From: Antedon mediterranea
Lineage: Eukaryota > Echinodermata > Crinoidea > Comatulida > Antedonidae
NCBI RefSeq assembly: GCF_964355755.1
Contig: NC_092671.1
Coordinates: 40,858,304-40,922,303, forward strand
Length of the DNA: 64,000 nucleotides
Direction of reading: 5' to 3'
Shown: positions 135 through 62,513 of the stretch, piece after piece
How positions within the stretch are numbered: the first letter of the stretch is position 1
Layout: each line of letters starts with the position of its first letter
The notes under the pieces: model-generated
Told to the model about the DNA's origin: nothing
The model's input: the letters and a program-made list of their open reading frames with translations, nothing else
Database searches by the model: none
Position numbers and translations under genes: made by a program

Positions 135-3100
135 GTGAATGTGTGCGTTGATATCCATCAATCTGTTGCTACAAAATCTATCAAGTATCTTGCTGAGTTG
201 TCCAGACATAATTATGTTACACCAACCAGCTATCTTGAATTACTTGGCATCTTCTCAAAGCTGATTGGACTCAAGACCAATGAGCTAAGAACGGCAAGAA
301 ACAGAACAAAGACTGGTCTTGATAAGCTGTTGCGTACTGCTGATGAGGTTACCAAGATGTTAGAAGAACTTGAAACAATGCGACCAATGTTAGAGGAAGC
401 TGCTAGAGAGACAGAGGTTACAATGAAACAGATTGCAGAGGATAGTGTGATTGCTAATGAGACTAAGGCTGTGGTACAAAAGGAAGAACAGCAGGCAACA
501 GTTAAAGCTAAAGAAACACAAGCTATTGCAGACTCTGCACAGAAAGACTTAAATGAAGCACTTCCAGCCCTTGATGCTGCTCTTGCAAGCTTGAAATCAC
601 TTAACAGAAATGATGTTGTTGAGGTACTTAATTACAATATTTTTTATATTTTGTATAGCCTTACATTATTACACAATACCACTTAAAGCACAACTGATCA
701 TTGTTGGCTATCATTAAGTACATTATTAAAGCACAACTCATGTTTATCTCCAGGTACGAGCAATGCAGCGCCCTCCTGCAGGTGTGAGGATGGTGATTGA
801 AGCTGTGTGCATCATGAAAGGTGTTAAAGCAAAGAAGGTTGCTGGTGAGAAACCTGGAACCAAAGTGGATGATTACTGGGAACCTGGCAAGAACTTGCTG
901 CAAGATCCTGGAAAGTTTTTAGATGGCTTATTTACATATGATAAGGTCAGTCGTAGATGGCTAATATTTACATATTCATTCATTCATCTTTTATTTCGGA
1001 AAAAAAAAAAAATTCTCCATAGTTCAGTAACAAATTAGTGTACATTATTGCAAATATAACAAATATATATATATATATATGTAGATATATAAAAAAAACA
1101 AAAACCTACGCTACATAGTCACATGGTTAGAACAATAGCTTCATCCATCTACTATGTAGATTGGATGAAGGAAAAGCAAATTCATGAATACATTTTATGA
1201 CAATATTGCCTGACCTCCCTAACCTGCACAACATGCCAAATACCACCTTACGTTGTAGTTCGTAGAACGAGCAGATGTGGTTTTCTACAAACATGGTGCT
1301 GGCACTGCATGACCTAGGTTTATTAAGGATCAGGCGTAAGGCATTGTTGAAGCACACCTTTAGTGCTTCCATAGATTTTACATTAAAATTTGCCCACAAA
1401 GAAGCACAGTATAAGTTACTACAATATGTTTTAAACAAAAAACACTTTATGTTTTTAGAGCATTTTGAGAAAGTTCTACATAGTGTATTAGCTCTAATGC
1501 ACAATGACCTGTACTGTCGTTTGATATCCGTATCATCTTTCAAATCGGGTGTTAAAGTGTGACCCAAGTAATTAAAAACTCTAACAAAGTCAAGTTCCGA
1601 CTCAAATAAGTTTAAAGTGGGAAGCTTTGACAATCCTGACTGTAGGACAGAATAACATACATACAGATTTTTTCTTGTTATACAATATATCATGCGTTAA
1701 TGAGTATTTTTCACACATATGAATTAGATGTTGTAATGCGGAGGCAGATGGTGCAATAAGTACCATATCATCCGCGTAACTAAGGTTGTTTAGTTTTATA
1801 CCGTGTAATTCGCATCCATTGCGAGACATACTGAGATTGACAATTAAATCATCCATATAAATATTAAAAAGTAAAGGAGACATAACTCCACCTTGTCTAA
1901 CACCATTGGTAACTGAGAAGTCTCTAGACAATGACTTTCCCCAGCGAACATGAAACCTTTGATTGGTATACCAAGACACAAGAACTCTAACTACACATAA
2001 GGGGGTTCCCCTATAATGATTAATACGATCAAATGCTTTGGAGGCATCTAAAAAACAGGCATAAATCGGGCTACCATTTCTATTATAAAATTCGATTGTC
2101 TGTTTGAGAATAAAAATACATGTTTCAGTTGAATGACCATTTTTAAACGCATACTGTCGGTCATTTGATTTGAGTGTATCACCACACATATAAATCAAAA
2201 TAGACTCACAAACACTTTAGACATCACGCATTCAAGCGCAATAGGATAGATTTCACAATTGGTATGAGCACAACTTTAGATATCTCTTTTGTCACATGAC
2301 CATGAGATATCATGGCATTAAAGCATATACTGAGGACTACAGAAATTCGCTTACTCGCATACATAATGTGTTCGCCTGTCAAACCATCAAATCCAGGGGA
2401 TTTACCCATGGGGAGTTTATTAATAAAATCATTAACTTGCAAAGAATTAGTACATAAACAGTCATATGCATGTGTATATAACGAATCATTAACAAACTTT
2501 TCATTGGAGACATCAGAGATACAATTAAATAATGATTCATAATGATTAGCCCATTGTTCACAAATTTCATCTTCACCTTTAGCCTGATCAATTGAGTTGG
2601 AAAGTATGTTAGAGTTGGTTTTAGATTTCTTAATCTGTTTCCAAAAAGATTGATAATCATTTTGAGTAAACGATTGGGCCATAGAATCTGCTCTGAGTTG
2701 ATTTTCATTAGCTTTACAAGTTCTAAGAGCTAATTTGAATCTAGAGCGAGATGTTTTCATTGCTTCATATAATGGATCATTTCTAGGTTTACCATTCTCT
2801 TTCCAAAACAAGAAGGCTTCTCTAGCAATACTGTGTAAATCCGAGACATGGTCATTCCATCCAGGAACGATATGTGCATTAATATTATTCTTTCCCCTTT
2901 TTGAGTTACTCAAGGCAATATCAGATGCTTGTTGAAGGCACTTAACAACATCATTGTACAGCTTATCTATTTTATTGATATGCTCCTCATTCGAACATTT
3001 GTCATGAGAGCAAGTAAAACCTTCACTACTTACATTAAGTCTACTCAAAAGTTGGTCAGTAATCATACAATATTTATCGATATCATTTGTTGATACTTTG

Positions 3101-6100
3101 TCCCAGTTTACTTTTACATAACAGTCAGAATTAATACTACAGTGTGGATATAGGTCAGTGTTAAATGGCTTATTTACATATGAAAAGGTGATCAGTTTTG
3201 GTAGATGTCGTATCTACAATGTTAAATTTCCTGTGAAAAGAGATGATCAGCTAGTAGTAGAGTGCTCAGGCAAATGGAATACACAAGTTATAATTCTTAT
3301 GTGAAAAAAAGATAAATATTCTACTGGTGGTTGGTTGGTCATAATATGCACATTAAACTGTACTATTATTTTTATTGTATAGGATAACATAACAGATTCA
3401 ATAATTAACAAGATTCAGCCATACATTGACAGCGAAGAGTTCACACCAGCTGCCATTGCTAAGGTGTCCAAAGCATGTACATCAATCTGTCAGTGGACAA
3501 GAGCAATGCACAAATACCACTTTGTTGCTAAAGCAGTTGCACCTAAGAGAGTAAGTCTACTTGGTTACATTACTAGAGTAATGTAAGTATCCATTATAAT
3601 TCAGATTTATTCAGTAAAAACATTGTACATTGCTAAACCCTCAAACTTCACTTTCTTTCATTGTTAAGGAAGATATATTGGAACATCAGGTATTTTGATA
3701 TGTAATATTGTTTAATTGTACTAAATAATGTACTGAAGCAGTTAACTATCAAAGGTCAATAATGTCATCTCTTAATGCTTTATTAACATTTTCTTGGTCC
3801 ATGTATAACATTTTAAAATATTATTTGTGTATCAATTTAACTATTTTAAAATGGTATGTATTTTAACAAGTATAATTGCTAAATGTATGTATAGGTGTTG
3901 TGCTGCAAGTCATGTGATATGATTCATGTTTAATATATGCAGTACATTGTTATGTATTTTGATTGTTATTAGTATTATTATTAATTGATACTTATAAATT
4001 TTCTTTTTGATATGTTTTAAGGAGACACTGATTTTGTCACACTGTGATTTATGCAAAAGTAATTTCAAAGACGTTTAGTTCAGTGTGAAATGTGCTTTTA
4101 AACAAAATATTTTTTACTACAATATTAACATTTTTAATGTTTTTTATATTTAATTCATAAATGTATTATTGTACTGTTTTTCATTTTAGTAATATATCTG
4201 ATATATTATTTCAAAGCCAGTTTATCTACAGTCCAATATTGTTGATTTATTGTTACTACTCCATCTGACTAAGTTGTTTAACCTCACCAGGAACAATTGC
4301 GTATAGCTCAAGCAGATTTGGCAGAGACTCAGCGGGTGTTGGATGCAGCACGAGGCCGTCTACGTGAGGTTGAAGATGGTATAGCTACACTACAAGCCAA
4401 ATATAATGATTGTGTTGCTAAGAAGGAAGAGCTTGAAATGAAATGTGAACAATGTGAAGCTAGATTAGGAAGAGCTGATAAGGTAATACACAGTATAACG
4501 TGAGACTAAATGTATTGCAATGAATTACATACTGTACATCATTATTGCAGTATGAAATGTGAACAATGTAAAGCTAGATTAGGAAGAGCTGATAAGGTAA
4601 TACACAGTATAACATGAGACTAAATGTATTGCAATGAATTACATACTGTACATCATTATTGCAGTATAAAATGTGAACAATGTAAAGCTAGATTAGGAAG
4701 AGCTGATAAGGTAATACACAGTATAACGTGAGACTAAATGTATTGCAATGAATTACATACTGTACATCATTATTGCAGTATGAAATGTGAACAATGTGAA
4801 GCTAGATTAGGAAGAGCTGATAAGGTAATACACAGTATAACGTGAGACTAAATGTATTGCAATGAATTACATACTGTACATCATTATTGCAGTATAAAAT
4901 GTGAACAATGTAAAGCTAGATTAGGAAGAGCTGATAAGGTAATACACAGTATAACATGAGACTAAATGTATTGCAATGAATTACACACTGTACATCATTA
5001 TTGCAGTATGAAATGTGAACAATGTAAAGCTAGATTAGGAAGAGCTGATAAGGTAATACACAGTATAACGTGAGACTAAGTGTATTGCAATGAATTACAT
5101 ACTGTACATCATTATTGCAGTATAAAATTAACATTCCAATGAGTTGAAAACTTTACATCAGTTACACTATAGTGTACGTTCTCTATATGCCATGAACTTT
5201 TTTAATGTTTTTATTGATATTCTGTTTTATAATCAGCAATCAATTTTGCTTTTATACCTGTTTGTGAAAACACAATAATGATAAAACTTGAACACCTATA
5301 GACTGAATGTATTGAACCTTGCTATATTATCATTATTGTTGCAGATCATTTACATATTCTCCTTAATTGCTTGTACCTAAGTTAAAGACAGCTAAATTAT
5401 TTAACATTTCTTTGTGTTGTAGTTAATAGGTGGCTTAGCTGATGAAAAGGATCGATGGCAGGAATCTGTATCTAAACTGAATGAGATCATAGACAGTATT
5501 GTAGGTGATGTCCTCATATCTGCTGGTTATGTGGCGTACCTTGGTCCATTCACTGTAAGTTATTAAATAATAATATAATATGTTGTGTTATGTACCTGAC
5601 AACCAGCAGTTTACACAAATTGATTTTAAAGGATTTAGGCTTCTGTTTTAATTTTTCATACAACTGACCGATGATAGGAATATGCATCATCATACCCTGT
5701 ATGAGGTTTAATCTTTTAATTTATCAAATTGACTGAGATAGTATATATTTAGGTATATTTATTCATAAAAAGACATCAAAATACAACGGCAGCCAAAAGG
5801 CTGAAAAGTAGTATTTTACAAAATTTGATAAAAATATATACATTCTTTCTTCTATTTTGCAGGGAGAGTACAGACTTTCAATGGCTGAGGAATGGATAGC
5901 TGCATTAGATGCACATCATGTACCTCACACCAGTGACTGTAATTTCCAGAACACTTTTGGTGACCCAGTCAAAATCCGTACTTGGCAGATTGCTGGCCTC
6001 CCTCGAGACAATCTATCAGTAGAAAATGGTGTAATTGTGCAGTTCTCACAACGATGGCCGTTGTTCATTGACCCTCAAGGACAGGCTAATAAATGGATAA

Positions 6101-9100
6101 AGACTTTAGTAAGTTCATTTCTCAGTTTTTCATAATGATTTAGGAAAACTTGTAATGGTAGTTGAGTTACTTACTTACTTTAGACTTACTTTAGTGGATT
6201 TGTTTACCAGATTCCCTCAATTTAAGTCTTTGGTTAAACTATAATACAAAGCATACACTTTGATTACAGGAAAAGGACAATGGAGTTGATGTGATAAAAT
6301 TAACAGACAGGGATTTCTTGAGGAGTCTTGAGAATGCTGTAAGGTTTGGTAAACCTTGTTTGTTGGAGAACATTGCAGAAGAACTAGATCCAGCTCTTGA
6401 ACCTATACTACTTCGACAAGTATGTTGGTTTTAATTCAATAAATATACCGTATATACATGGTATTTAACATCCATCCTTGATATACTCATCACATGTCAC
6501 ATTCCTATTCTACTTCGACAAGTATGTTGGCTTCACTCCAATAAATATATATACATAGTATTCAACATCCATCCTTGATACGCACATCACATGTTACCCT
6601 TCTATTCTCATAGACTCTTCAAAGGTTCTCATTAATCAATTAGCAGTAAATTTGATTTATTTGTACATTTTATTCTAGACATTCAAGCAGCAAGGAAGCA
6701 CAGTAATCAAGCTGGGAGATGCTGTTATACCATATCATGATGACTTTAAGTTTTATGTTACTACAAAGTTACCTAACCCACACTATACCCCAGAGGTATC
6801 CACCAAAGTCACACTGGTTAACTTTACTCTGTCACCAAGGTAAATGCCAAATAAGTACACTTTTACAAAATAAACATATAAAATATAAAAACATAAATTG
6901 TGCTGTATAAGAACAGAAATTGTTAATGTTGTTTTTTTCATAAAGGTCTTTTAGATAATAAGGAATAGTGCCCTCTATATTGAAAGTTGGAAACTTTAAT
7001 ATGTTGTTTTCACTTAGTGGTCTTGAGGACCAGCTTTTAGGTTTGGTGGTAGCTGAGGAACGACCAGATCTTGAAGAAGCTAAAAACCAGTTGATTGTAA
7101 GCAATGCGAAGATGAAGCAAGAATTGAAAGAGATTGAAGACAAGATTCTGGAACGACTAAGCAATTCAGAGGGCAATCCTGTAGATGACATTGATCTCAT
7201 TGCTACTTTGGAAGCATCAAAAGTCAAAGCTCATGAAATTCAGGTTAGCAGCTCAAATCCTTTTGAATATTTGTTGTCAGTATGATTAAGATGTTCATTT
7301 TTACTTGTTCTTTTTTACTTGTTCTGTTGCTTTTGTTCTTAATAGGCTAAAGTAGTGGTTGCTGAGCAAACAGAACGTGAAATAGATGAAACTCGTTCCC
7401 AGTACATTCCTGTATCAATCCGTACACAGCTGTTGTTTTTTTGTACAACAGATCTTGCAAACATTGATCCTATGTACCAGTACTCACTTGAATGGTTCAT
7501 CAACATCTTCTTGGCTGGCATTGCAAACTCTGAAAGAGCAGGTTTGTTTTTATCTGCTATATTAGTAGAAACACATTTTACAAAGCCAAAATAATGTAAA
7601 GCTAGTCTAAGTACAGTTGTTAGTTGTTTCTGTCACCTATAATGTATCCACCTATGTTTCCCCAGAAAACGTGGCACAACGTATTGTGAACATCAATGAA
7701 TACTTCACCTTCAGTTTGTACAGCAATGTCTGTCGCAGTTTGTTTGAGAAACACAAGTTGCTCTTTGCATTCTTGCTTTGTACACGAATTATGCAGAATG
7801 ATGGACAAATTAATATGGTGAGTTGTAATGATTTAATATGGTGAGTTGTAATGATTTAATATGGTGAGTTGTAATGATTTAATATGGTGAGTTGTAATGA
7901 TTTAATATGGTGAGTTGTAATGATTTAATATGGTGAGTTGTAATGATTTAATATGGTGAGTTGTAATGATTTAATATGGTGAGTTGTAATGATTTAATAT
8001 GGTGAGTTGTAATGATTTAATATGGTGAGTTGTAATGATTTAATATGGTGAGTTGTAATGATTTAATATGGTGAGTTGTAATGATTTAATATGGTGAGTT
8101 GTAATGATTTAATATGGTGAGTTGTAATGATTTAATATGGTGAGTTGTAATGATTTAATATGGTGAGTTGTAATGATTTAATATGGTGAGTTGTAATGAT
8201 TTTTAATTGTATTTTAAGATGATTACTTTGTTTTAGTGGTGCTGTTTATACAAACAATACTTCTAAGACTTCAGGCCACAGTTTCAAGATGTTAGGAAAG
8301 AGGGACAGGGGAGAGGTATAACAAATTTCCTAGAATACATTTTTTTCTCTAAATTCACATCAAGACGGTAGAAATACATAATTTTGGTTTATCTTTAGGA
8401 TGAATGGCGTTTCTTATTGTCTGGTGGAACTACAGTTCCAAAAGAGCTTCCAAACCCAGCTAAGGAATGGTTGTCAGAAAGAGCTTGGAAAGAGATCCTG
8501 TCAATGGCATCACTGGTAAAAGACATGACATTTATTTATTTATTCTGTCTCAATACTGAATGACACTTTCAGTGCTAAGGCATTGATTTCTAAAGTGGTT
8601 CAGTAGAAATAGAAAAAAAAGTAATATTTTTAGAAAATTGTCTTTCTTTGCAAGATAGGATATAAAATGCATTTAAAATACTAAAATACGATAAAAAATA
8701 CAAATATGCTAATTTTGTATTGGTTTTAAGAAAACATGTCATTAATACTCTTAGGCAATTACTAGATACATTCCCTTCATCATTGGTTGTCTCATTATTT
8801 ATTGTTTCTTGTATAGAAAACCTTTGAAGTGTTTGCTGAAGACTTTTCAAATCACCTTGATGGATACAAGAGGATCTTTGACAGTGCAGACCCCCACCAA
8901 GAGGACCAGCCTGGAGACTGGAACACCAAGCTTGATAGCTTCCAAAGGATTCTTGTATTAAGGTGTATACGTGCAGATAAAGTTACCAATGCCATGCAGG
9001 TTTGTTTTATTTCAAGACTTAATTTACAAGTTAACAAACCACCAGCCAATGATTTTACACATTTCAATTTGTTTAACAGGACTTTGTATCTACCCACTTG

Positions 9101-11820
9101 GGTCAACGCTTCATTGAGCCACAAACTGCTGATCTTTCAATAGCATTTAAAGAGTCTTCTCCAGCATCACCTCTGGTGTTTGTCTTGTCTGCTGGTACTG
9201 ATCCTGCAGCAGATCTCTACAAATTTGCTGAGGAAATGAGATTTTCTAAGAAACTGACTTCTATATCACTTGGACAAGGACAGGTAGAGTAATTTCATTA
9301 TCTAAGTCAATGTCTAATTGTGTGTCTAACCCTAAACAAACACATTATTTCAAACTATTCCATATAATCCTATTAATTATGTTTTCTTTTCTGTAGGGAC
9401 CTCGTGCTGAGGCATTGATGCGAAGTGCTATGGACCGTGGTAAGTGGGTATTCTTTCAGAATTGTCACTTGTCACCAAGCTGGATGCCATCATTGGAGAG
9501 ATTGATTGAAAATATTGACACTGATAAGGTAATAATAATAATAATGTGGATATTATAAGGCAGAAAATCACTCAACTCATTTATGAAACTCTTCATTCCA
9601 AAGATCATTTTTATTGATTAATTAAATCAAATTGAATGGATTGTGGAATAACAATTTCAATAATGGCAAATTTATTGTATTATTTTTTTTGTTGCAGGTT
9701 CACCGAGATTTCCGTTTGTGGTTGACAAGTCTGCCAAGTCCTAAATTTCCAGTTGCAATTTTACAGAACAGTTCAAAGATGACAATTGAACCTCCCAGAG
9801 GAATAAAAGCTAATCTTCTGTCAGCCTATGCAAATCTTAATGACGACTTCCTCAATTCTTGTGGAGAAAAGGTAATCTAGTTTGTAACTCCTTTGTTTAC
9901 CAAATCATATTTCATCAGTTAAATTTATATTTTTTTTATCCAGACAATAATAAAAATTACAATTTATTCAGGTAAATATATATTATGATGATTATACATC
10001 TAACAATCATGAAGTTACAGTAACTATGTGTGAATCAATTACTACTACTTAGGCATTACATGTTTGATTTCATAGTGAAGTAACCACTTCTAAATCATTA
10101 AGGAGTACTTTTTCATATACTTATACCAACATGAAGAATAACAAGGGCCCTGAAATAGAGCGACGTTCTAGTTGCATACCTACATTTTCATTTTCATGTT
10201 ATTTAGACTCCTGCATTCAAAACTCTTCTTCTGTCTCTGTGTCTCTTTCACGGTGTAAACATTGAAAGGCGTAAGTTTGGTGCCCTTGGCTTCAACATCC
10301 CATATGAATTTACAACAGGTGACATGCGTATCTGTATTAGCCAACTCAAGATGTTCTTATTGGAGTATGACACAATTCCATTTAAGGCAAGTTTATTTCT
10401 ATGCTTTTTATTATTACTAATTCCAGTCTACTTTGTAAAAAGTTGTCAACTACAAATTGAAATGTTATTTATTTTCTTGAATGTGATTTGTATTTAGGTG
10501 TTAAAATATACTGCTGGACACATAAATGTTATTTATTTTCTTTAATGTGATTTGTATTTAGGTGTTAAAATATACTGCTGGACACATAAATGTTATTTAT
10601 TTTCTTGAATGTGATTTGTATTTAGGTGTTAAAATGTACTGCTGGACACATAAATGTTATTTATTTTCTTTAATGTGATTTGTATGTAGGTGTTAAAATA
10701 TACTGCTGGACACATAAATGTTATTTATTTTCTTGAATGTGATTTGTATTTAGGTGTTAAAATATACTGCTGGACACATAAATGTTATTTATTTTCTTGA
10801 ATGTGATTTGTATTTAGGTGTTAAAATATACTGCTGGACACATAAATGTTATTTATTTTCTTTAATGTGATTTGTATTTAGGTGTTAAAATATACTGCTG
10901 GACACATAAATTATGGAGGCCGTGTGACTGATGATCAAGATAGACGTTGTATTATGAATATCTTGCAAGATTATTATAATAAAGATGTTTTAAATGAAGA
11001 TCACATCTACTCACCTTCTGGAAAATACAGACAAATACCTACCAACATGGATCACAATGTAAATATGTTCTTTCTATTTGCCATACAGCCTCTGTTTTAG
11101 TAAATCTAGAATTATACAGAATATAAATATAGATGAAATCCCATGAAATAAAACACTGTGTAGAGTATTTTTTGTTTATTTTGACTAGAAATTAGTGATG
11201 ACGTATTAGCCAAATATAATCACAGATTTAGTTGAGACACTCTCAATAACTCAAGGGGATTATCTATTTCCTTGTTAAATTGTCTAGCCATTATACAGTC
11301 TAAGTAAGTCAAAGCCACATGTCTATTGAACAACAACATATATATATTTAGTGTGACATAGCATTCTTTAAAAACAGAAATTTAAAAAAAATAGGAAAGT
11401 AAATTATGAATGAATTATTATTATTATTAGCTTTATTGGATGGTTTACAATTGAATTCAATCTGTAAACATAGCATATTGCTATAAGAATGTTTTTATCA
11501 ATTGTTCAACAAGCATAAAACTTCTACTGATACTATTATACCATATTTTAATGACCTTTATGACTGTAGGAAATGAGTACAAGTTTGTTAATTATTAAAC
11601 TCTTGCAAAGCATGTGTTGTTTTTACTGAGATTGTGAGAATAAGGACATCTGTTGAATTGCTGTATCTTATACTATAATTCAAATGGATAAGATAATGCT
11701 TTTATGAAGTAAGATATATATATATATTAGATTATAGTCTCCTGATGAGTGAGTTGCACGACTCACGAAACAAGCCTGAAGAGACCAAACTGTAGTTTTT
11801 ACTTCTTTTCCAGACTTAAC

Positions 11821-11866
<46 letters not shown>

Positions 11867-14800
11867 TACTACATAAAAGCATTACTGTATATATATCTTA
11901 CTACATAAAAGCATTATCTTATCCATTTGAATTATAGTATAAGATACAGCAATTCAACAGATGCTATGACTTTATCCAAATTCCCTCACTTGCACTGATG
12001 AAGGGCTAGTCACTTGCCCGAAAGCTCTGCTAACTTTTCTGGCTGTTTACTTTATCGTTTTGATTTAGCTTTTCACTTTTTATTTTTGTATCTCCATTGA
12101 GATCCAGCCACTGATACCAACAGCATTGTCATTTTTTTCAGTTTGCAAAATATATATATATAAATACAGTACCCTTTCTTTGTTAAAAAGTATATCAACT
12201 GCTATGTTAAGATTTATAATATATATTTTTTACCAATTATATACTGATATTGATTATGATTTTGTTAAAGGGTTACATTTCCTACATCAAAAGCTTACCA
12301 ATTAATGATACACCTGAAATATTTGGACTTCATGACAATGCCAATATCACATTTGCTCAAAATGAAACATTTAGTCTACTGACTGGCTTGCTCAAACTGC
12401 AACCAAAAACAGCATCAGGCTCAGGACGGACACGAGAAGAGGTAAGTGCTTTTTCATTTTAATCACATTATATTATGGACCAGGTGGTCATAAATTATAA
12501 TGATAATCTCTGTCAATCACCAACCGACTTTCTAAAATATAAATTTTACCTAAGATTGATGTTTTAATCAAATGTCATTTATACAATGAGAACATTGAAT
12601 GTTGCGGTATGTAGGTCACTACGACCTTAGGAAGTAAGCCTCACACCGGAATATGTACAGTACTTACTATATAGTATATTTTTGTTCTGTAGTAGGCCAG
12701 GCTATATGTACAGTACTTACTATAGTATATTTTTGTTCTGTAGTAGGCCAGGCTATATGTACAGTACTTACTATAGTATATTTTTGTTCTGTAGAAGGCC
12801 AGGCTATATGTACAGTACTTACTATAGTATATTTTTGTTCTGTAGTAGGCCAGGCTATATGTACAGTACTTACTATAGTATATTTTTGTTCTGTAGTAGG
12901 CCAGGCTATATGTACAGTACTTCTATAGTATATTTTTGTTCTGTAGTAGGCCAGGCTATATGTACAGTACTTTACTCAGATAGTATATTTTTGTTCTGTA
13001 GTAGGCCAGGCTATATGTACAGTACTTACTATAGTATATTTTTGTTCTGTAGTAGGCCAGGCTATATGTACAGTACTTACTATAGTATATTTTTGTTCTG
13101 TATTACGCGGCCAGGCTATATGTACAGTACTTACTATAGTATATTTTTGTTCTGTAGTAGGCCAGGCTATATGTACAGTACTTACTATAGTATATTTTTG
13201 TTCTGTAGTAGGCCAGGCTATATGTACAGTACTTTACTATAGTATATTTTTGTTCTGTAGAAGGCCAGGCTATATGTACAGTACTTACTATAGTATATTT
13301 TTGTTCTGTAGTAGGCCAGGCTATATGTACAGTACTTACTATAGTATATTTTTGTTCTGTAGTAGGCCAGGCTATATGTACAGTACTTACTATAGTATAT
13401 TTTTGTTCTGTAGTAGGCCAGGCTATATGTACAGTACTTACTATAGTATATTTTTGTTCTGTAGTAGGCCAGGCTATATGTACAGTACTTACTATAGTAT
13501 ATTTTTGTTCTGTAGTAGGCCAGGCTATATGTACAGTACTTACTATAGTATATTTTTGTTCTGTAGTAGGCCAGGCTATATGTACAGTACTTACTATAGT
13601 ATATTTTTGTTCTGTAGTAGGCCAGGCTATATGTACAGTATTTACTATAGTATATTTTTGTTCTGTAGTAGGCCAGGCTATATGTACAGTACTTACTATA
13701 GTATATTTTTGTTCTGTAGTAGGCCAGGCTATATGTACAGTACTTACTATAGTATATTTTTGTTCTGTAGTAGGCCAGGCTATATTTACAGTACTTCTAT
13801 AGTATATTTTTGTTCTGTAGTAGGCCAGGCTATATGTACAGTACTTACTATAGTATATTTTTGTTCTGTAGTAGGCCAGGCTATATTTACAGTACTTACT
13901 ATAGTATATTTTTGTTCTGTAGTAGGCCAGGCTATATTTACATGACACAAAATGTTTGATAATAAATAGTTATTTCTAAGGAAAGAACAATAATTAAAAC
14001 CACGAGCCGCGTTTCTTTTAAGAAATATATCTTGTTTTATATATGATAATAAAATAAATTAAAATTCTATGTTTAGGTGATTGAAGAAATGGCGAAAAGG
14101 ATTTTGGATGTTGTACCAAACGCAGTTGATATTAACATGGTAATTGACAAACACCCAGTTAGATATGAAGAGTCTATGAACACTGTCTTAATACAAGAGG
14201 TTATTAGGTATGTAGTACCACTAACAGTCATTTCATAATTATTAGTGTATAATAGTAACTGCACTGTAATTAATTTGCCAATGCTGCCTCTCATACACCG
14301 TATTGAGTATGGTAGTAGTCAGCCAAAACAATGTTTACAATCTGCATACAAATTTATGTTCAATCTGTTAAATTGATTAAAACAAGTTATAAAGTATAAT
14401 ACAAATACGTATCTTCAGGTTTTTTTTTCATATTCTTTACATGTTTTATCCACAGATACAATCCTCTGTTTGTTGATATAAAATATATGTTTTTTTTCAT
14501 ATAATTTACATGTTTTATTTATCTACAGATACAATCGTCTATTGGTTGTGATCCACAAAGGATTACATGATGTCCTGAAAGCTTTGAAAGGTTTAGTTGT
14601 AATGTCAGAAGAACTAGAGACAATGTCAAACCAAATGTTTAACAATACAGTTCCAACAATGTGGGCTAATAAGGTCAGTACTGGGTCAACCAACCAAGTT
14701 TAAACCACAGTTCTTTTGTTATTTTACAAAGTACCATACTTAAATGTAAAAACAAAAGAAATCCATTCTACTCACTAGATCACTTCCTGTAGTCTGTACA

Positions 14801-17800
14801 AATTGTTTTATATAATAATATTTTAATTTGTCTTACATATGCCAGGCATATCCTTCTCTGAAACCACTTTCATCATGGGTATCAGATCTGGTAACCAGAA
14901 TGGATTTTGTACAAGATTGGATTACAAAGGGAATTCCAAGTGTATTTTGGATCTCTGGATTCTTCTTTCCTCAAGCATTCTTAACTGGTACTTTACAGAA
15001 CTATGCAAGGAGAGCTGTTATCTCAATTGATACCATTACATTTGATTTTAAGGTTTGTTATTTTAAATTCAAGAGAAGAAGACTTCTTGAGTTTTTTATT
15101 TTGCAGGGTCCATAACTTTGTTAAAGTTGCATGAAAATATATGGCTCTTAAGTTTTTTTTTAATGTAGAAAGCTTTAGAGAGCGCATTCAGTAAGTTTAT
15201 TTTTTATATTTAGGTGATGAGAGAAGCCGCTTCAGAGTTGACAGAAAGACCAGAAAATGGCTGTTATGTAAGAGGCTTATACTTAGAGGGTGCTCGCTGG
15301 GATTATCATAAACATGAATTAACTGAATCTAGACCAAAGGAATTGTATACAGATATGCCAGTTATTCAACTGATACCTGTTGCCAACAGAGTTCAACCGT
15401 CCAGTGGCATCTATGTATGTCCTGTATATAAAACACTTACTAGAGCTGGTAAGAATTACTGTATTATTGATAGAATACAAATTGTTTTCATTAAATTAAA
15501 TCTTTCTTCCTTAAAATGGACCTGAAGTGGATTTTCGATTTTTTTCATTTTAGAATGATGTTTTGGGGGCTATTAGGTGTTGCTAGAATGTATATTGTTA
15601 CAAAATATAAATTGGCCCTTTTGGGGAAAGCCCCATTTGAAAATCAAAAAAATTCGCAGGTGACGTCACTTTGCGAATATATTCCTATCCCTCCAATGGA
15701 CAATTTGCAGTTTTTTGGCTATAACTCTTGAAATCTATGGAGTATTTTCTAAAAAATGCTTGTGCATTTGCAGAAACGTATTTAGAATTTTTTTAGATAA
15801 AATTATTACCGTATAAACGGTTATTCATCGAGTAAATGACGATTTAAAATCTTAAAATCAACGTTTTTTTTCTGGCAATACCGAAGTTGGCCTGGCAACG
15901 TTGTCCGGGATACAGCTCCGTGCGCAATGATGCGTATCCATATTTTCCGTTCGTGTATTTTTGTAGGTGTCTGATCATTTCGGCCGCCGGTTATGGAATT
16001 GCCAAATTCATGAAACGCCAAAAAGGACAAAATATGTATTGTTAATTTCGGCCGCCAGAATTGTAATTATTCTTGAATATGTATGACACGCCATGTGTGT
16101 TAAAATGTTAATATTTTACTAGGCCTAAATACTGTATTATTAAGCCGCATCGGCGGTCTTCAATTCCAGAAACAGCAGATTCATATTAAAAGAAACACAT
16201 TTTTACAAAGCACACGCATCTTCGGGACTTCGGGAAAATAAATAAAAAAATAAACATTAAATCAATATTCATTTTGACCAAAATATTCAGACGGTAATAT
16301 ACCGTAACTAATATAACTTTAAATCTATGCCTACGGCAAAAACAAAATGTATTTAGCCCATTGCACAACTGATCTCTAGTTTAAATGACCATAGTTCTCT
16401 GTGACGTTCCATAGACTTGATAAAGTTTTTTTTTTCACTGTAATACTGTACAGTTAATGAGTTATTTCTGGCTATTTCAATTTGGCGCGCCATACCTGGC
16501 GGCCGAAAAGATCATGCCATATTTTGTCCTTTTTGGAGTTTCATGAATTTGGGCGTTCCATAACCGGCGGCCGAAGTGATTGGCGGCCGAAATGCACTGT
16601 GACCTTTTTGTATATCGTTCGTAATTTATACTGCTAAAATGTGTTAGTTTCTTTAGTTTTTAGTTTAGCAGAATTAAATTAGTAATACTAGAGGGTGAGC
16701 TCGCTTCGCTCGCTCCCCCTCTAGGAAGTGTAGACGATGGTTCTCGGAATGATAATGTTCTCCTTATACGTTTTCTGTCGGTTACCATTATTGAAAATGC
16801 TTGACATTCGTAAAACTAAACTACTTTGTTTCACAGTGTTTTAGATGATTAATAACATTTTAAAGTACAGTTTTTATTGTTTGGTAGGGCCCTTTGGGGA
16901 GGCGGAGGTCATTTGAGGGAGGTACTTATTCGAGGGATATGTTAAATTTTGTAGTTTTAATATGGTAACATTTATAATCAAATGAAATCCTCTAATAGAT
17001 ATGAAAAGTGCTAAAAAAGAATAACAAATGCTTGGTAAATTGTAAATAACAGTGCGGTGAATTCTACTACAAATAGTATAATTGTGTTGTTATAAATATG
17101 TGGATGGACGGTTATTAGATAGTTGGATTGGGGGGGGGGTATTATTCAAAGTGATGTTTTATTGGAGAGGCGTTTATTCAAATGAATACCATCCTAATAA
17201 TTATTAATACATTATTTAATTTAATCATCTTTTGAATTTAACTGCCGTGACAGAGTGGGCCCAAGAAAGAAGACATTACGGCTTGCAACGTGGGCAGACA
17301 TCTCGGTCCTAACGGGACACAGGAAGATAGCCTACAGTTATTCCTGCAAGCTTACTCAATAAAACTCAGCTATCGGGATTTCACTCGAAAAAAGTCTTAT
17401 CATCAAATCTCCCTATGTAATTTTATAATACTATTCCCCACAATATATTCTGATTCTTTATGGCGTATATTTAATTTGATCTTTATTAATTTGCAGTATA
17501 ATTCCTATTATTTAACTACTGTACCTTCACACACGTGCGGTATGTTTTAAAATAAACAAAAAACTGAAATGGCTATGATTAATGGCCAAATATATCTGAT
17601 TTTTTTTTCGTCTTCCAAAGGGACACTGTATTGATTGATGGAAAGTGCCTGTTTCCAGTCACCTTTAGGGTCAAATCTATTATTTTAACTGCTCCCTTGT
17701 GTTTAAAAGAGAGAAAATATTTGAAACTAAGGTTGTTGCAAGGTGAACTTATCTTAAACCCGGAAATTACTTTGACCGGGAAGAATTGAAATTGAGAGGA

Positions 17801-22873: not shown

Positions 22874-25800
22874 ATGGAGGCCCTGCTCAGCGATAGCAAA
22901 CCCATGGACATGATTGACTCCGATTTCAATTATTTGTTTGACTCTGATGTTTTTCACAATGTTGTAAGTAGCGTATCTTATTACTAACTGTTTGGTATTT
23001 ATATTAGTGGGCTTAGCGAGTGGGAGGAACCATATGGAGCCGATCCAGTCTATTATTTATTACCCAAAACCTTAAAATGGTCTTCTGATAACCGATGACC
23101 ATCTATTATTATTTATGATGTTAAACATGTAATATATAATTAAAGTAAGCTAGGACTATCGTATGTTTTATGATTTATCTTAATTTTTCGTAGCACTAAA
23201 ATACTACTAGTAGTACTGTAAATAATGCCAGACAGTCATAACTTGATGGCATGCTTTTCTAATATTAAATAATATTAGCTTAAATATATAATAATAAATG
23301 GTTTTACAGTACTATAATCATGGACCTCTAATTTATATAGGTCCATACTATAATAACACTTCCCTCATTAAATACAGATCATTAAAATTAGTTGTTTCAA
23401 ATCGGTCATGTGTGTTAAATAAAGTCAGTGTGACTGAAATGATAATTTTCAAAATTGGATCTATGCTTTTATAGTTTATTAATAATATTTAAATTATTGA
23501 GAGTCTGATTAATAAAAATCCTCTTAAAACCATGTTTATTTTTAAGAAGGTTCCCGGCACCTCATCCTTATCAGCTTCACTGGTGGTGTGTTGCAGACAC
23601 ACCCACTAGAATCCTTGAGGTTTTTCCATATTCATTCAATTCACTATTGTTATAAATCAACTGTTTCATTTAAGAGGGTTTCCTTTATTTAAAATAAAAT
23701 ACTTGAATTGAATGGTGTTTTGTCCTCGGACTAAATCTGTTCTTATGAATTGAGAAGAATACATAAGAATTTTCATTGATAGATTTAAAGAACGCTTATT
23801 AGTTCTATTCCAGTTGGCATGCATTCACATAAATGTGTATAGCATTCCTCAAACTTATTCACTAGTGAACAAACTTTTCAGAATCTTTTTATCTCATCAA
23901 TGATTTCTTGAAGAAAGCATTTGTAGTGTTGTTATGTTTAACTGACCATGTCCAACAATATTTGTGCATATGTTTACTGTTTCTTAAACAAATATCAAAC
24001 CATATGGTTACAGGTTTACTAGATTAAATAACAAATAAATCTGCATACTGCACCTTTTACATAATTGATGATATTATTGGTTGGTTTGTATTGAAAATAA
24101 TTATAAAACCAAAATGCATTTCTTTTTCTCAATATTCAAAGCGAAATGACAAAATAAATAATACCATTATTGATTTAAAAAAAAAATTAATCTGGATTTT
24201 TTAACCAAGTAAAATAATAATTTCTGTTTCCAAAAATATTGTTACTTGAGTTAAATTCTGATGCAATGCCGAGACAGGAAGTCATGTGTCTGCATTTTAC
24301 AGGAAACTTGTCTACCTAGAAAAAAACAAGCTTGCAATAAAGATATTTAATTATAACTTTCTTGTTTGGCATTTGTTAGGTAATAACAAATAATAAACTT
24401 GCAATATGTTGTTTTATTTTCAACTTTATGTTAATATGTTTACAGTTATAATAAGATATTTAGATGGCACAGTTATCACAAGTAAAGTTGGAATTGTGTG
24501 CATTTAAAAAATAGGTTTACCTATTCAACAATCATATAAAACCTCTATTGTGGATTAATAGAAAGAATAGAAATTACTGTTCTAGAGTAAACTTTTAATA
24601 ATGTGTTGTTTCCCTATCAAGCAATATTCAGGCCTACCCAATTGCAAAAAAGTTTACAAAAAGTTGTCTATTTAATAGTACCTTCAATCGTGGGAGAAAA
24701 TAATGCATGATAGAGATACAAAATTTACTATCTAATTTCAAATACACAATTACTTATGACATAACCAAAAACCAATGGTATAGCCTGATTTTAAATCAAC
24801 CAATCAGATGCTAGAAACCTTTTGATTTACTAATCCAAATATCCTCCATTTAACAATAGTGTGTTTCACAATAACTTTTAAAGATAATCAGTGCAGATAA
24901 TTACTTGTGTAGGTGCAGTTCTATTGATTTTTATCTTTAGAAGAATGTCCAACAGGTTGTAAGGTTTTACTATCTGTGATTTATAAGTGCTGTAAGAAGA
25001 AGTGATTGATACTAAAAGATGTATCCATGGATTAAGTATCTAATCACTAGATTTACTAATAAAAGCTGGGCTATAATATAATTATATTCATGAGACTTCT
25101 GTATATGTTATAGATATTTCTAGGTATATTGTACAACAATCCTGGGACCAGGGCATTGAAATTCAGATCTAAAAGCAAATTAAATAATGTTTTAAAATTT
25201 AAAAACTACACAAATTTATAACTTATGTTTCAATAAGTATCTTTAATTGTTTTTTATAGCTAGCAGGTAACAATTCAAGATTTGTAGCGGATCGGCTTCA
25301 ATTTATTTAAAAACAACATATGAACCTTCATTCACAATGTGATATCATATTGTCTATTTTAAGCTTGTGTACTGTAGTTCGGTATTACAATGTGAATCGG
25401 CAACAGAATAGTTGACTTTTGATTCTTATTTTTTTACAATGTTTATTCCCATCTTCTTTACCAATATTGAACTTAACCTTCAACTCTATTCATTATTGGC
25501 CAAGGTAATGTTGGTTGAATAGTTTATTTTTTCATCTCAAGTCAAGAAAAATACTTGTTTAATTTAAAGCTTCAACCTCTGAATGCAATTTTTTTTAATT
25601 GTTTTTTTTCTTGATGTACTAAATAGGTCATTGACATTGCTTTATGCTACCAATACTATTTTGAAATAAACCGACACCAATTCTTTAAAACATAAAAAAA
25701 TAAATTAACCATACATTTTTAACTTAAAAGAAAGCATTGAATACAATCAAATTTTACCTGTACACTTGTGATAATTTACTGTTAGTTACGATTTTATTGT

Positions 25801-31800: not shown

Positions 31801-34800
31801 AGAGAACATTAATTGCAGAAGGCTATCCTATTCCAAACAAACTTCCACTCTCAAAGTCAGAAGAAAAATCACTAAAGAAAGTCAGAAGGAAAATTAAAAA
31901 TAAGGTCAGTTATTAGAACATGAGTCTACCTACTTTAATAGTATAAGTTTTAACCATTCTTTTATCTTGGTAATTCATTTTCATCTCCTCTTAAGTAACT
32001 ATATTTTGTTATATACAGATTTCAGCACAGGAAAGCAGAAGGAAAAAGAAAGAATATGTTGAAGCTTTAGAAAGAAAGTAAGTGGCCATGCTTATGTAAC
32101 TCTCATCATAGAAGTAACATTTAGTAACTGTCTCGCTCATCCAAATCAAAACTACCTCATTAATTATTGTTATGATAAATAAAGGAAGAGTGAACTTCAT
32201 ATAATTGCAGATTTGTCTCGTCTGCTGGTGTAACTAATATAAGATATTCTTGTTTGTTAATAGAATGGAACAGTACACACAAGAAAACACAGATTTAAAA
32301 AAGCGAGTAGACTCATTAGAAAGTAACAACAAAACACTCGTCACACAACTTACAAAACTACAGTCTATTGCAAATAAGATTTCCAAACCAATCCGAGCAA
32401 CTTCAACCCAGACAGGAACTTGTTTAATGGTAAGTCCAGATTTTTAACATTAATTCATTTTTTTAAATAGTTAGTCATATCTGTTAAGATCTTTAAAGAC
32501 ACTTTCCCTATCATTTTTATAATAAAAAGAGAAAAACTATGCACTAAGTAACTCGTGTCGAATAAAACTATGCACTAAGTAACTTGTGTCGAATGTCCTT
32601 TTTTTGACTGCCTTATAGGCCTAGGTAAGATTAGTTTTGTAGGCCTAGTGGTAAAACAGCAGTAACGTACGAACATTGTATGCCAGCTATAGGCCTAGGT
32701 AAGATTAGTTTTGTAGGCCTAGGTGGTAAAACAGCAGTAACATACGAACATTGTATGCCAGCTATAGGCCTAGGTAAGATTAGTTTTGTAGGCCTAGGTG
32801 GTAAAACAGCAGTAACGTACGAACATTGTATACCAGCTATAGGCCTAGGAAAGATTAGTTTTGTAGGCCTAGGTGGTAAAACAGCAGTAACGTACGAACA
32901 TTGTATGCCAGCTATAGGACTAGGTAAGATTAGTTTTGTAGGCCTAGGTGGTAAAACAGCGGTAACGTACGAACATTGTATGCCAGCTATAGGCCTAGAT
33001 AAGATTAGTTTTGTAGGCCTAGGTGGTAAAACAGCAGTAACGTACGAACATTGTATGCCAGCTATAGGCCTAGGTAAGATTAGTTTTGTAGGCCTAGGTA
33101 GTAAAACAGCAGTAACGTACGAACATTGTATGCCAGCTATAGGCCTAGGTAAGATTAGTTTTGTAGGCCTAGGTGGTAAAACAGCAGTAACGTACGAACA
33201 AATTGTATGCCAGCTATAGGCCTAGGTAAGATTAGTTTTGTAGGCCTAGGTGGTAAAACAGCAGTAACGTACGAACAAATTGTATGCCAGCTATAGGCCT
33301 AGGTAAGATTAGTTTTGTAGGCCTAGGTGGTAAAACAGCAGTAACATACGAACATTGTATGCCAGCTATAGGCCTAGGTAAGATTAGTTTTGTAGGCCTA
33401 GGTGGTAAAACAGCAGTAACATACGAACATTGTATGCCAGCTATAGGCCTAGGTAAGATTAGTTTTGTAGGCCTAGGTGGTAAAACAGCAGTAACATACG
33501 AACATTGTATGCCAGCTACAGGCCTAGTTCCTGCATTAATTGTTTTTTTGTTCTATTTGTTTTGCTTTAAAGATCAATCAAAAGTAGGTGCATCGCAGAA
33601 ATAAAACAAAAATATCAATCAATGCACCCTGGTATTTATAGTGGGCCGCTTAAATCATTATAATCGAATTATTTAAACTTTTTTACTGTTTAAAGATGAA
33701 AAAATTATCGCAAGAGGCCCAAATACATTATAGTAGTATTTATTTTTAAATAAAATGCAGTTTTTGAACCTTAAATTAGATAGAAACAAATGTAGGTATA
33801 AGTGTCTTTTGGTTATGTCAAATGTAGCCCATACATAAGTGCAACTGTAGGTAAAGTGTCTTTTGGTCATGTCAAATGTAGCCCATGCATAAGTGCAACT
33901 GTAGGTAAAGTGTCTTTTGGTCATGTCAAATGTAGCCCATACATAAGTGCAACTGTAGGTAAAGTGTCTTTTGGTCATGTCAAATGTAGCCCATGCATAA
34001 GTGCAACTGTAGGTAAAGTGTCTTTTGGTCATGTCAAATGTAGCCCATACATAAGTGCAACTGGTAATTTCAATTAAATACTTGATTTGTATTGCTAAAA
34101 ATATTTTTGTATTAATTAACTGCATGTAATGCCTGTATAATACCATTTATTTTACCTTACCTAATGCATGATGAAACAGCACATTTTCATAAAACTTTTA
34201 AAAACATTCATTCAATTCTATTACTAATTCAGATATAAAAAGGAATTTTATTTCACTTGGACAATCTAATGAACAGACCGTTACAAATTCTGAGGTGTAG
34301 ATAATTTATAACGCACTACACTGATTTGTAATATATGTAACAGATGCTACGGACGTATATTGATTTTATAGAAATCCTCCCTCGCACTTATGTACATTGT
34401 ATTTTGTTGCTGACATCTGCAAAAACATGACTTATTCCCACTGTGGAATATAATCCAATTGAATATTGATTGCCTAATTACTATCTGCTATTTGAAATAT
34501 TTATAATTTAGTTTTCTTTTTAATACAATTAATATGTATTTCTTTGCTAATATTTTGATTTAAATCACCGCATGTAAACTTATTTCTATTCAGTATCGTT
34601 TACGGTGTAAAAGCAGAAGGTGACGAGATTGATGAGAAAGCCAGCAAGAAATCCCCCGCTTCTTTCACCCTTGACCTCAGGTGCAGTATGCAAATAACGC
34701 TGTTTTCTCAATTCCTTTTATATTTTAAAACTTTTTGTGTAACTTTTCTTCTTTTGGATTGAGGTAAAGGTATCTCTGCACCTGAATACTATATTATGTC

Positions 34801-44057: not shown

Positions 44058-47000
44058 TGGAAACTACTCGGAACTACACGGAACTACTCGGATCTTCTCG
44101 GAACTTCTTGGAACTTCTCGGTACTTCTCGGAACTAATCGGAACTACTCCGAAATACTCCGAAATACTCGGGACTACTCGGAACTAATCGGAACTAATCG
44201 GAACTACTCGGAACTACTCGGAAATACTCTGAATTATCGGGACTACTCGGAACTTCTCGGAACTACTCGGAACTTCTCGGAACTACTCGGAACTTCTCGT
44301 CACTACTCGGAACTACTCGGAATTACTAGAAAATACTCGGAAATACTAGAAAAATACTCGGAACTACTCGGAACTACTTGGAACTGCACGGGACTACTCG
44401 GGACTACTTGTAACTACTCGGTACTACTCGGAACTACTCGAAACTACTCGAAACTACTCGGAACTACCCGGAACTTCCCGGAACTTCTCGGAACTTCTCA
44501 GATACTACTTCGAACTATTCGGACCTACTCGGAACTACTCGGAACTTCTCGGAACTACTCGGAACTACTCGGAAATTCTCGGAACTATTCGGAACTATTC
44601 AAAACTACTCGTCAAAATTCGGAACTACTCCGAAATACTCCGAAATACTCGGGACTACTCGGAACTACTCGGAACTAATCGGAACTAATCGGAACTAATC
44701 GGAACTACTCGGAACTTCTCGGGACTACACGGGACTACTCGGAAATACTCTGAATTATCGGAACTACTCGGAACTTCTCGGAACTACTCGGAACTTCTCG
44801 GAACTACTCGAAACTTCTCGTCACTACTCGGAACTACTAGAAAAATACTCGGAAATACTAGAAAAATACTCGGAACTACTCGGAACTACTCGGAACTGCA
44901 CGGGACTACTCTGGACTACTTGTAACTACTCGGTACTACTCGGAACTACTCGAAACTTCTCAGATACTACTTCGAACTATTCGGACCTACTCGGAACTAC
45001 TCGGAACTTCTCGGAACTACTCGGAACTTCTCGGAACTATTCGGAACTATTCAAAACTTCTCGGAACTACTCGTCAAAATTCGGAACCACTCGGAACTAC
45101 TCGGAAATTCTTGGAACTATTCGAAACTACATGTCAATATTCGGAACTACTCGGAACTTCTCGGAACTATTCAAAACTTCTCGGAACTACTCGTCAAAAT
45201 TCCAAACTATTCGGAACTACTCGGAAATTCTTGGATCTAATCAAGACTACTCGGGTTTATTTGGAACTACTCGGAACTACTCGGAACTTCTCGGGACTAC
45301 TCGGGACTTCTCGGGACTACTCAGGACTTCTCGGAACCACTCGGAACTACTCGGAACTTCTCGAATCGGAACTTATCGGAACTACTCGGATCTACTCGAT
45401 ACTACTCGGAACTACTAGGAACTATTCGTAACTTCTCGGAACTACTCGGAACTACTCGTAAATACTCGGAACTTCTCGGAACTACTCAGAACTTCTCGGA
45501 ACTACTCGATACTACACAATACTACACGATACTACTCGGAACTACTCGGAACTTCTCACCACTACTCGGAACTTCTCACCACTACTCAGAACTACTTGGA
45601 ACTACTCGGAACTACTTGGAAATACTCGGAAACACTCGGAACTACTCGGAACTACTGTGAACGTCTAGGAACTACTCGGAATTACACGGAACTACTCGGA
45701 ACTTCTCGCCACTACTCGGAACTAATCGGAACTACTCGGAAATACTCGGAACTTCTCGCCACTACTCGGAACTACTCGGAACTTATCGGAACTTCTCGAA
45801 ACTTCTCGGAACTCCTCGGAACTACTCGTCAATATTCGGAACTACTGGGAAGTACTCGGAAATACTCGGAACTTTTCGGAACTACTCAGAACTTCTCGGA
45901 AATATTTGGAACTATTCGGAACTACTCGGAACTTCTCGGAACTTTTCGGAAATACTCGGGACTACACTGGACTTCTCGGAACTACTCGGAAATTCTCGGA
46001 ACTATTCGAAACTTCTCAGAACTTCTCGGAACCTATCAGAACTTATCGGAACTACTCGGAGCTACTCGATACTACTCGGAACTTCTCGGAACTACTCTAT
46101 ACTACTCGGAATTGCTCGGAACTGCTCGGACCTTCTCGGAACTACTCGATACTACTCGGAACTACTCGAAACTACTCGAAACTACTCGGAACTACTTGGA
46201 AACTACTCGGAACTACTCGGAAACTAATCGTAACTACTCGTAGCTACTCGTAGCTACTCGGAACTTCTCGGAACTTCTCGCCACTACTCGGAACTGATCG
46301 GAACTACTCAGAACTTCTATGAACTACTCGGAACTTATCGGAACTACTCGGAACTACTCGTCAATATTCGGAACTACTGGGAAATACTCGGAAATACTTG
46401 GAACTTTTCGGAACTACTCAGAACTTCTCGGAAATATTCGGAACTATTTGGAACTACTCGGAACTACTCTGAATTACTCTGAACTTCTCGGAACTTCTCG
46501 CCACTACTCGGAACTTCTCGGAACTATTCGTAACTATTCGTTACTTCTCGGAACTACTCGGAACTACTCGTCAATATTCGGAACTACTCGGAACTACTCG
46601 GAACTACTCAGAACTTCTCGGAACTTCTCGATACTACACGATACTACTCAGAACTTCTCGGAACTATTCGAAACTTCTCGGAACTACTCATCAATATTCG
46701 GAAATACTCGGAACCACTCGGAACTACTCGGAACTTCTCACCACTACTCGTTACTACTCGGAAATACTCGTAAACACTCGGAACTACTGGGAACGTCTAG
46801 GAACTACTCTGAACTACTCTGAATTACTCGGAACTTCTAGGAACTTCTCGCCACTACTCGGAAATACTCGGAAATACTCGGAACTACTCAGAACTACTCA
46901 TCAATATTCAGAACTACTCGGAACTACTCGGAACTACTCGTCAATATTCAGAACTACTCGGAACTACTCGTCAATATTCGGAACTACTGGGAAGTACTCG

Positions 47001-51911: not shown

Positions 51912-52389
51912 AACAATGGCTTGAAGTTATAAACACTGACGATCCCAACACTGCATATAACAATGGCTTGAAGTTATAAACACTGACGATCCCAACACTG
52001 CATATAACAATGGCTTGAAGTTATAAACACTGACGATCCCAACACTGCATATAACAATGGCTTGAAGTTATAAACACTGACGATCCCAACACTGCATATA
52101 ACAATGGCTTGAAGTTATAAACACTGACGATCCCAACACTGCATATAACAATGGCTTGAAGTTATAAACACTGACGATCCCAACACTGCATATAAACACT
52201 GACGATCCCAACACTGCATATAAACACTGACGATCCCAACACTGCATATAAACACTGACGATCCCAACACTGCATATAAACACTGACGATCCCAACACTG
52301 CATATAAACACTGACGATCCCAACACTGCATATAAACACTGACGATCCCAACACTGCATATAAACACTGACGATCCCAACACTGCATAT
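51912..52389 (+). repeat. Tandem expansion of LINE coding sequence: six 47-bp then seven 28-bp units
   Basis: AACAATGGCTTGAAGTTATA with AACACTGACGATCCCAACAC and TGCATAT repeats every 47 bases at 51912, 51959, 52006, 52053, 52100 and 52147, then shortens to a 28-base unit (AAACACTGACGATCCCAACA, CTGCATAT) for seven copies. The original sequence is LINE ORF text (VINTDDPNTAYNN); the expansion brings in-frame TAA codons. Confidence 0.96.
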
Positions 52390-52479
52390 AACAATTTTGA
52401 CAATAAATTAAAATCACTTTATAATAAACACTTTCCCCTCCAAAAATCAAAAAAATAAATAAATAAAATAAAATCCTGG

Positions 52480-54438: not shown

Positions 54439-54701
54439 ATTTTTATTATTCGGTCATGTCTCGATCTGCAGTACCAACAGATTTTTTTTTTTCTGTTATT
54501 CATATTTTAGATTACGAAATTTATTATGATTTTCTTCAATGCATTTCTTTTCTTTTTTATTTGTGTTAAGGCTCGCCCAACACAAGATGTTACAAAATCT
54601 TTCAGGGCTTTTGCCTTCATTTTCTGATATACTTTACAATTCTGTACAATCCTGTTTCTTGTTTTCCTACTGTATGTATTCAGATTTTGTAAATAATGTC
54701 T

Positions 54702-54727
54702 ATTGAATTGAATTGAATTGAATTGAA
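54702..54727 (+). repeat. (TTGAA)n 3' tail of the LINE
   Basis: ATTGAATTGAATTGAATTGA ends the element and abuts satellite decamers. CR1/L2-clade elements end in short tandem repeats rather than poly(A). Confidence 0.85.
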
Positions 54728-60330: not shown

Positions 60331-60334
60331 CAGA

Positions 60335-60727
<393 letters not shown>

Positions 60728-60757
<30 letters not shown>

Positions 60758-61737: not shown

Positions 61738-61876
61738 CTCGTAATTTCCGTCACTTCTCTGACGAATATTATCAGTTAGGATGTTGAGAAACCTCTTTCG
61801 TCAACTGACATGGAAACGCCAACACCTCTATCTGGAAAATCAACTTTCATCATTTTTTTAATGTGAATTGGTGATA

Positions 61877-62500: not shown

Positions 62501-62513
62501 ACTCGCTAGCTTG

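Follow-up and report, generated by a model that had tools for sequence, protein, structure and literature searches.

Tandem arrays across exon edges of the crinoid dynein gene DNAH1 are probably ordinary minisatellites

Introduction

In the crinoid Antedon mediterranea, several exons of DNAH1, the gene for axonemal dynein heavy chain 1, end or begin within tandem repeats whose units carry a piece of the exon together with its splice site. Does a process that starts at exon/intron junctions create such repeats, or do ordinary minisatellites come to straddle exon edges and survive there? We address this question in a 64,000-nucleotide stretch of contig C2 (the window, C2:40858304-40922303; positions given without a contig name are counted from its first letter) and in further dynein loci of the same assembly, which comprises 354 Mb in 18 contigs and has a G+C content of 33-35% in the stretches that we sampled. 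The explanation that we hold with good confidence is that the arrays are ordinary minisatellites, arising by local tandem duplication, expanding, and surviving at exon edges, in a gene region that is unusually prone to them.

Results

Five exon edges of DNAH1 are tandemly duplicated

The 3′ third of DNAH1 lies in the window, where we modeled its exons by hand-anchoring them between GT/GC-AG introns:

135..15448, plus strand: DNAH1 (axonemal dynein heavy chain 1), 23 exons, 3′ third of the gene; exon model with a continuous 1453-aa frame, final exon(s) not located

The 1453-residue model matches the solved DNAH1 chains over its full length (query 1-1453; 2446.7, 2440.7 and 2435.5 bits), and the next chain after them, labelled DHC2, scores 1818.3 bits. 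Five repeats, four located by Tandem Repeats Finder (TRF) and one by local alignment, contain an exon edge:

4438..5128, plus strand: 114 bp x6 array (TRF x6.1, 97%); end of exon 4 (45 nt), donor and intron start
6402..6608, plus strand: 102 bp x2 array (TRF period 97, x2.1, 82%; donor-to-donor spacing 102); end of exon 7 (18 nt) and donor
7810..8202, plus strand: 23 bp x17 identical copies (TRF x17.1, 100%); end of exon 11 (8 nt) and donor gtgagt
10460..10911, plus strand: 64 bp x7 array (TRF x7.1, 97%); acceptor and first 30 nt of exon 18
14417..14562, plus strand: 73 bp x2 degenerate duplication (local alignment); acceptor and start of exon 21

For comparison, two TRF arrays in the same gene cross no junction:

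11822..11916, plus strand: TA run and 32 bp x2 repeat, wholly in intron 18
12651..13942, plus strand: 51 bp x25 array, wholly in intron 19

According to the exon model, the true junctions are at 4482, 6419, 7817, 10882 and 14529. At exon 4, the true donor after 4482 is followed by five extra donors, one per 114 bp, and the unit also holds an acceptor-like ttattgcag, which delimits pseudo-exons of 46 nt. Exon 7 has one extra donor, after 6521, in addition to the true donor after 6419; exon 11 has its true donor after 7817 plus 16 extra; and at exon 18 six extra acceptors lie upstream of the true exon start at 10882. The pair at exon 21 consists of the true exon start at 14529 and a decayed copy at 14456, a spacing of 73 bp. 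TRF lists no 73-bp array at this acceptor, and the local alignment scores 67, whereas the highest score among 500 mononucleotide shuffles is 33.

An earlier note on this stretch, made from its letters, had described five DNAH1 exon edges as tandemly duplicated with periods of 114, 102, 23, 64 and 73 bp, and we recover all of them. Its statement that the unit crosses the exon edge each time also holds, as the solved DNAH1 chains align without gaps across all five junctions (marked by a slash): RADK/LIGG, LLRQ/TFKQ and QINM/DEWR for exons 4, 7 and 11, and PFK/VLKY and EVI(R)YNRL for exons 18 and 21.

Similar arrays in the rest of DNAH1 and in other dynein genes

Drawn from the ~15 dynein loci suggested in the genome, the wider sample takes in the remainder of DNAH1 (60 kb upstream of the window) and four other dynein genes, three of them within stretches of 60 kb and the fourth as a 50-kb part. 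Exons outside the window were predicted by our own gene finder, for which the 23 window exons were the training set, and filtered by similarity between dyneins, a procedure that misses small exons; in its first run on the training exons, the gene finder recovered 20 exactly and 3 in part, and predicted many false short exons inside arrays. Five spurious DNAH1 predictions, the dyA prediction at 23614-23684 and the predictions within the DNAH3 array were dropped before counting, and DNAH1 predictions upstream of concatenated position 34469, which are without similarity support, were left out. The contig coordinates of the arrays outside the window, all found by TRF, were converted from concatenated coordinates:

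C2:40837154-40838320: 61 bp x19 donor array, DNAH1 upstream of the window
C2:40845015-40845229: 77 bp x2.8 acceptor array, DNAH1 upstream of the window
C2:40846690-40847194: 50 bp x10 donor array, DNAH1 upstream of the window
C2:40850115-40850686: 57 bp x10 donor array, DNAH1 upstream of the window
C2:40852497-40853129 (concatenated 54194-54826): 57 bp x11 array, DNAH1, intronic
C1:19363227-19368802, minus strand: DNAH3, exon end and donor, 82 copies over 5.6 kb

The four upstream DNAH1 junctions are likewise gapless against solved dyneins (MPQTN/YDKL, TTK/DLGK, LSSQ/DHYD and THEW/TDGI), and so is the junction of the 82-copy array (VAK/VVGP). The gene with 82 copies has its best match, at 706 bits, to a solved chain labelled malate dehydrogenase 1B, a label that looks wrong, and its next, at 700 bits, to DNAH3; we take it to be DNAH3. 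In total, DNAH1 contains nine junction-crossing arrays, eight found by TRF and the 73-bp pair. The nine TRF crossing arrays of the whole sample lie at seven donors and two acceptors, to which the acceptor pair 14456/14529 is additional.

Two candidate readings of individual arrays were discarded. Although the reading frame stays open through the whole 57 bp x11 array, we rejected it as coding sequence: solved DNAH1 aligns without a gap between the flanking exons (PKE/GDRP), which makes the array intronic. Two arrays were searched genome-wide and match only their own place, in a search that skips simple repeats and very common words, and for these two we rejected an origin as a dispersed satellite.

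In the five genes sampled, exons exclude arrays and junctions tolerate them

We compared the arrays with a null model in which each array is collapsed to one unit and the unit is placed at random, conditioned on its not being wholly exonic. TRF arrays with a period of at least 20 and a score of at least 100 were counted, and the 73-bp pair was left out. Of the 29 arrays in the five dynein genes, 9 span a junction, versus 7.99 expected (P = 0.40), with 8 of 18 in DNAH1 and 0/1, 0/5, 1/4 and 0/1 in the other four; outside the window, the count is 5 of 23, versus 6.14 expected. The overall P ranges from 0.16 to 0.68 under three other thresholds. Dropping a doubtful DNAH1 exon (concatenated 47159-47245) leaves the result unchanged (9/29 versus 7.90 expected), and DNAH1 alone without this exon has 8/18 versus 6.0 expected (P = 0.21). 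The exonic fraction of the unit varies from 0.18 to 0.96 across the nine crossing arrays and fits a uniform distribution (Kolmogorov-Smirnov P = 0.61), so that the junction may fall anywhere in the unit.

Arrays are therefore not drawn to the junction in this sample. The earlier note had offered, as one of two possibilities, a mechanism that initiates at junctions, on the premise that the unit of a random minisatellite should seldom contain an exon edge. That premise fails here: the expected crossing share is ~28% over the 29 arrays, because coding sequence makes up 30-37% of four of the five genes after the arrays are collapsed. The five genes, a sample rather than the genome, show no excess of junction-crossing repeats over the null model, which is the outcome that the note had named beforehand as refuting its proposal.

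No array is wholly exonic (0/29, versus 5.55 expected, P = 0.0017), and therefore purifying selection shapes the array pattern: exons exclude arrays, while junctions tolerate them. This count fits the other possibility in the note, namely that copies are tolerated by selection when their splice site still works.

The extra splice sites look neutral

In the extra copies, variable positions number 3 of 67 in the splice motif, 10 of 230 in exonic sequence and 6 of 140 in intronic sequence, a count of modest power that covers seven of the nine arrays, the other two having too few copies. The extra copies look neutral, and the position count gives no sign of selection. In all nine arrays, every in-register copy has its dinucleotide intact, GT at donors and AG at acceptors. 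No in-frame, stop-free product would come from any of the 147 extra copies of these TRF arrays, and the 46-nt pseudo-exon of the 114-bp unit would shift the frame, as its length is not a multiple of 3.

Because no extra copy is in frame and the dynein protein aligns without gaps across ten junctions, the first donor of a donor array, or the last acceptor of an acceptor array, would have to be the one used, provided that the gene works. Only this site, on the exon-core side, keeps the frame, and both the first donor and the last acceptor give the shortest exon.

Discussion

A proposed account by duplication, expansion and survival

In the account that we favor, repeat units would land irrespective of gene structure, presumably born by slippage or microhomology and growing by unequal exchange; in the seven arrays measured, the array length beyond whole units is 0-8 bp. 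Units wholly within exons would be removed by selection. Arrays that straddle an exon edge would survive because one intact junction is always left on the exon-core side, as the first donor or the last acceptor, and the extra copies would turn into intron and then drift. The choice of the first donor or last acceptor is perhaps most simply explained by exon definition that favors the shortest exon.

Several observations weigh against this account. The concentration of arrays in DNAH1 is left unexplained by it: its 31.7 kb of collapsed sequence hold 18 arrays, versus 11 in the 142 kb of the other four genes, a sevenfold difference (0.57 versus 0.077 arrays per kb, P = 2e-7), where DNAH1 was chosen for its arrays and 12 of the 18 lie outside the window. 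Within the window, 4 of the 6 TRF arrays of DNAH1 cross a junction, versus 1.85 expected (P = 0.066; 0.036 to 0.11 over all four thresholds), and the 73-bp pair adds to this share, which is suggestive but post hoc and is not replicated beyond the window. Donors outnumber acceptors by seven to two, an imbalance that does not reach significance (P = 0.18). When variability in the extra copies is counted by cells, the splice motif looks conserved, with 3 variable cells of 1284, versus 55 of 5756 in exonic and 42 of 1851 in intronic sequence. Finally, the sample consists of five genes from one family, with exons from our own gene finder, and dyB has few of them (24 over 57 kb).

The in-window excess and the preponderance of donors would fit a mutational mechanism that started at exon/intron junctions and seeded the arrays there, whether by co-transcriptional R-loops, by splicing-linked breaks or by template switching at the edge of the exon's nucleosome. 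An earlier in-window permutation, with 5 of 7 units crossing when the 73-bp pair is included, points the same way (P = 0.005 and 0.020). However, this permutation was made post hoc and failed to replicate, junction-crossing arrays are not in excess beyond the window, over all of DNAH1 or in the full sample, and the uniform position of the junction within the unit argues against an anchor. We rejected a junction-anchored origin on the counts over five genes, and we regard junction seeding as improbable. The cell counts, together with the intact GT or AG of all in-register copies, speak instead for the view, akin to the buffered splicing raised in the earlier note, that the arrays are kept since many identical splice sites buffer or tune the splicing of the gene. 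Yet 33 of the 42 variable intronic cells are one position of the 82-copy array, and the apparent conservation vanished when distinct variable positions were recounted, whereupon we rejected selection on the extra splice sites. With motifs as variable per position as the rest of the unit and no extra copy in frame, such a function is very improbable.

A further possibility is that the arrays are assembly artefacts, either collapsed or over-expanded repeats. Copy number is difficult to get right in assembly, the 17 copies of the 23-bp array are identical, and one lancelet repeat of the kind discussed below is noted to have been aberrantly assembled in a genome draft (PMC3087553). In contrast, six of the seven arrays examined have internal variants, several of them in only some of the copies, although copy numbers may still be wrong, and two arrays have decayed (the 102-bp pair, with 82% matches, and the 73-bp pair). 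We find an artefact quite unlikely, and return to minisatellite birth and survival as our preferred explanation.

Relation to lancelet mirages and other boundary repeats

The boundary arrays described here are the same phenomenon as the 'mirages' of lancelets, a term that, in literature without most subscription journals, appears in this sense only in PMC3087553 and PMC3902484. Mirages are the same structures in Adh3 (10-72 bp) and in the globin genes BflGb6 (150-160 bp) and BflGb9 (157 bp); the BflGb6 mirage has 6 and 3 copies on two haplotypes, reverse transcription PCR suggests normal splicing of the globin mirages, and Adh3 shows somatic instability (PMC3087553). Troponin C and PGBD5 also contain lancelet mirages (PMC3902484). 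In common with those accounts, the unit spans an intron/exon boundary (here in nine TRF arrays and one degenerate pair), both 5′ and 3′ boundaries are affected, and many copies keep the AG/GT splice signals. A difference lies in extent, as here nine arrays occur in one gene and 82 copies in another. The genomes differ as well: lancelet G+C is about 41%, versus the 33-35% sampled here, and although B. japonicum also has 18 chromosomes, B. lanceolatum has about 468 Mb in 19 (PMC11907188). A search of the present genome for the GFP family gave no match, nor did it give one in any control genome.

Two other comparisons are instructive. Human genes in segmental duplications have internal tandem repeats at exon-intron boundaries (PMC2812944), and these share with our arrays that they are minisatellites spanning an exon edge, with an effect on splicing reported there. 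Half of the human repeats lie in coding exons and change proteins, whereas none here is wholly exonic, and some form new introns according to transcript evidence, whereas the arrays here are known from genomic sequence. Intron gain by tandem genomic duplication (PMC4974935) likewise brings a donor beside an acceptor, as does our 114-bp unit, but here no new intron restores the frame: in-frame, stop-free extensions are absent from all of the extra copies, and the pseudo-exon is frame-shifting.

Implications

The features that remain unusual are the array load of DNAH1 and the choice of a splice site among up to 82 nearly identical donors. Minisatellites cluster near chromosome ends. The window ends where contig C2 ends, and closeness to the contig end may, as no more than a guess, contribute to the DNAH1 load; no telomere array is present in the last 600 bases of the window, and the window has a single TTAGGG pair, at 29229.

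Taking these parts together, we tentatively suggest, with slightly less than even confidence in the whole, that minisatellite birth yields tandem splice-site arrays as a neutral side effect, probably beyond lancelets as well, and that these arrays amount to natural experiments in how splice sites are chosen; that a 'shortest exon' pairing rule would select the first donor even among up to 82 and the last acceptor among seven; and that the region in which DNAH1 lies is a hotspot of such births. Classic splicing work found that the intron-proximal of identical donors is preferred. If RNA confirms faithful splicing of these arrays, exon definition would override that preference. The counts also offer a plain null model for mirages, in which about a quarter to a third of arrays would cross an exon edge in exon-dense, minisatellite-rich genes by no special mechanism. 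Such arrays would be natural test cases for the spliceosome's choice between identical sites, and possible raw material for new introns.

Other repeats and elements

Two further elements were noted within DNAH1. Intron 18 contains, at 11647-11963, an inverted repeat whose 76-nt arms are 99% complementary and separated by 165 nt, which has the look of a foldback or miniature inverted-repeat transposable element (MITE)-type insertion. Reverse-transcriptase-like frames, recognized by eye, lie on the minus strand within intron 2 at 1602-3213. Among the other dyneins, two MT-domain regions ~385 kb apart (C1:2221329-2223931 and 2606393-2609449) have near-equal scores exon by exon and are perhaps a recent duplicate.

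Elsewhere in the window, two arrays of 75 bp x12 (32614-33527) and 54 bp x5 (33787-34063) have units with AGGTAAG/AGGTAAAG donor-like strings and adjoin frames resembling a bZIP gene, both judged by eye. A 10-bp unit, AACTACTCGG, forms a 5.1-kb array of ~509 copies with 77% matches at 44062-49159, and this unit recurs in a shorter array 5.5 kb away at 54725-55361. Within a region resembling the reverse transcriptase of a long interspersed nuclear element (LINE), at 51912-52391, amplification is nested: a 47 bp x6 array continues into one of 28 bp x8, the 28-mer being part of the 47-mer. Near the contig end, at 57812-62533 on the minus strand, there are frames that, by their motifs, resemble Penelope-type and BEL/Pao-type retroelements.

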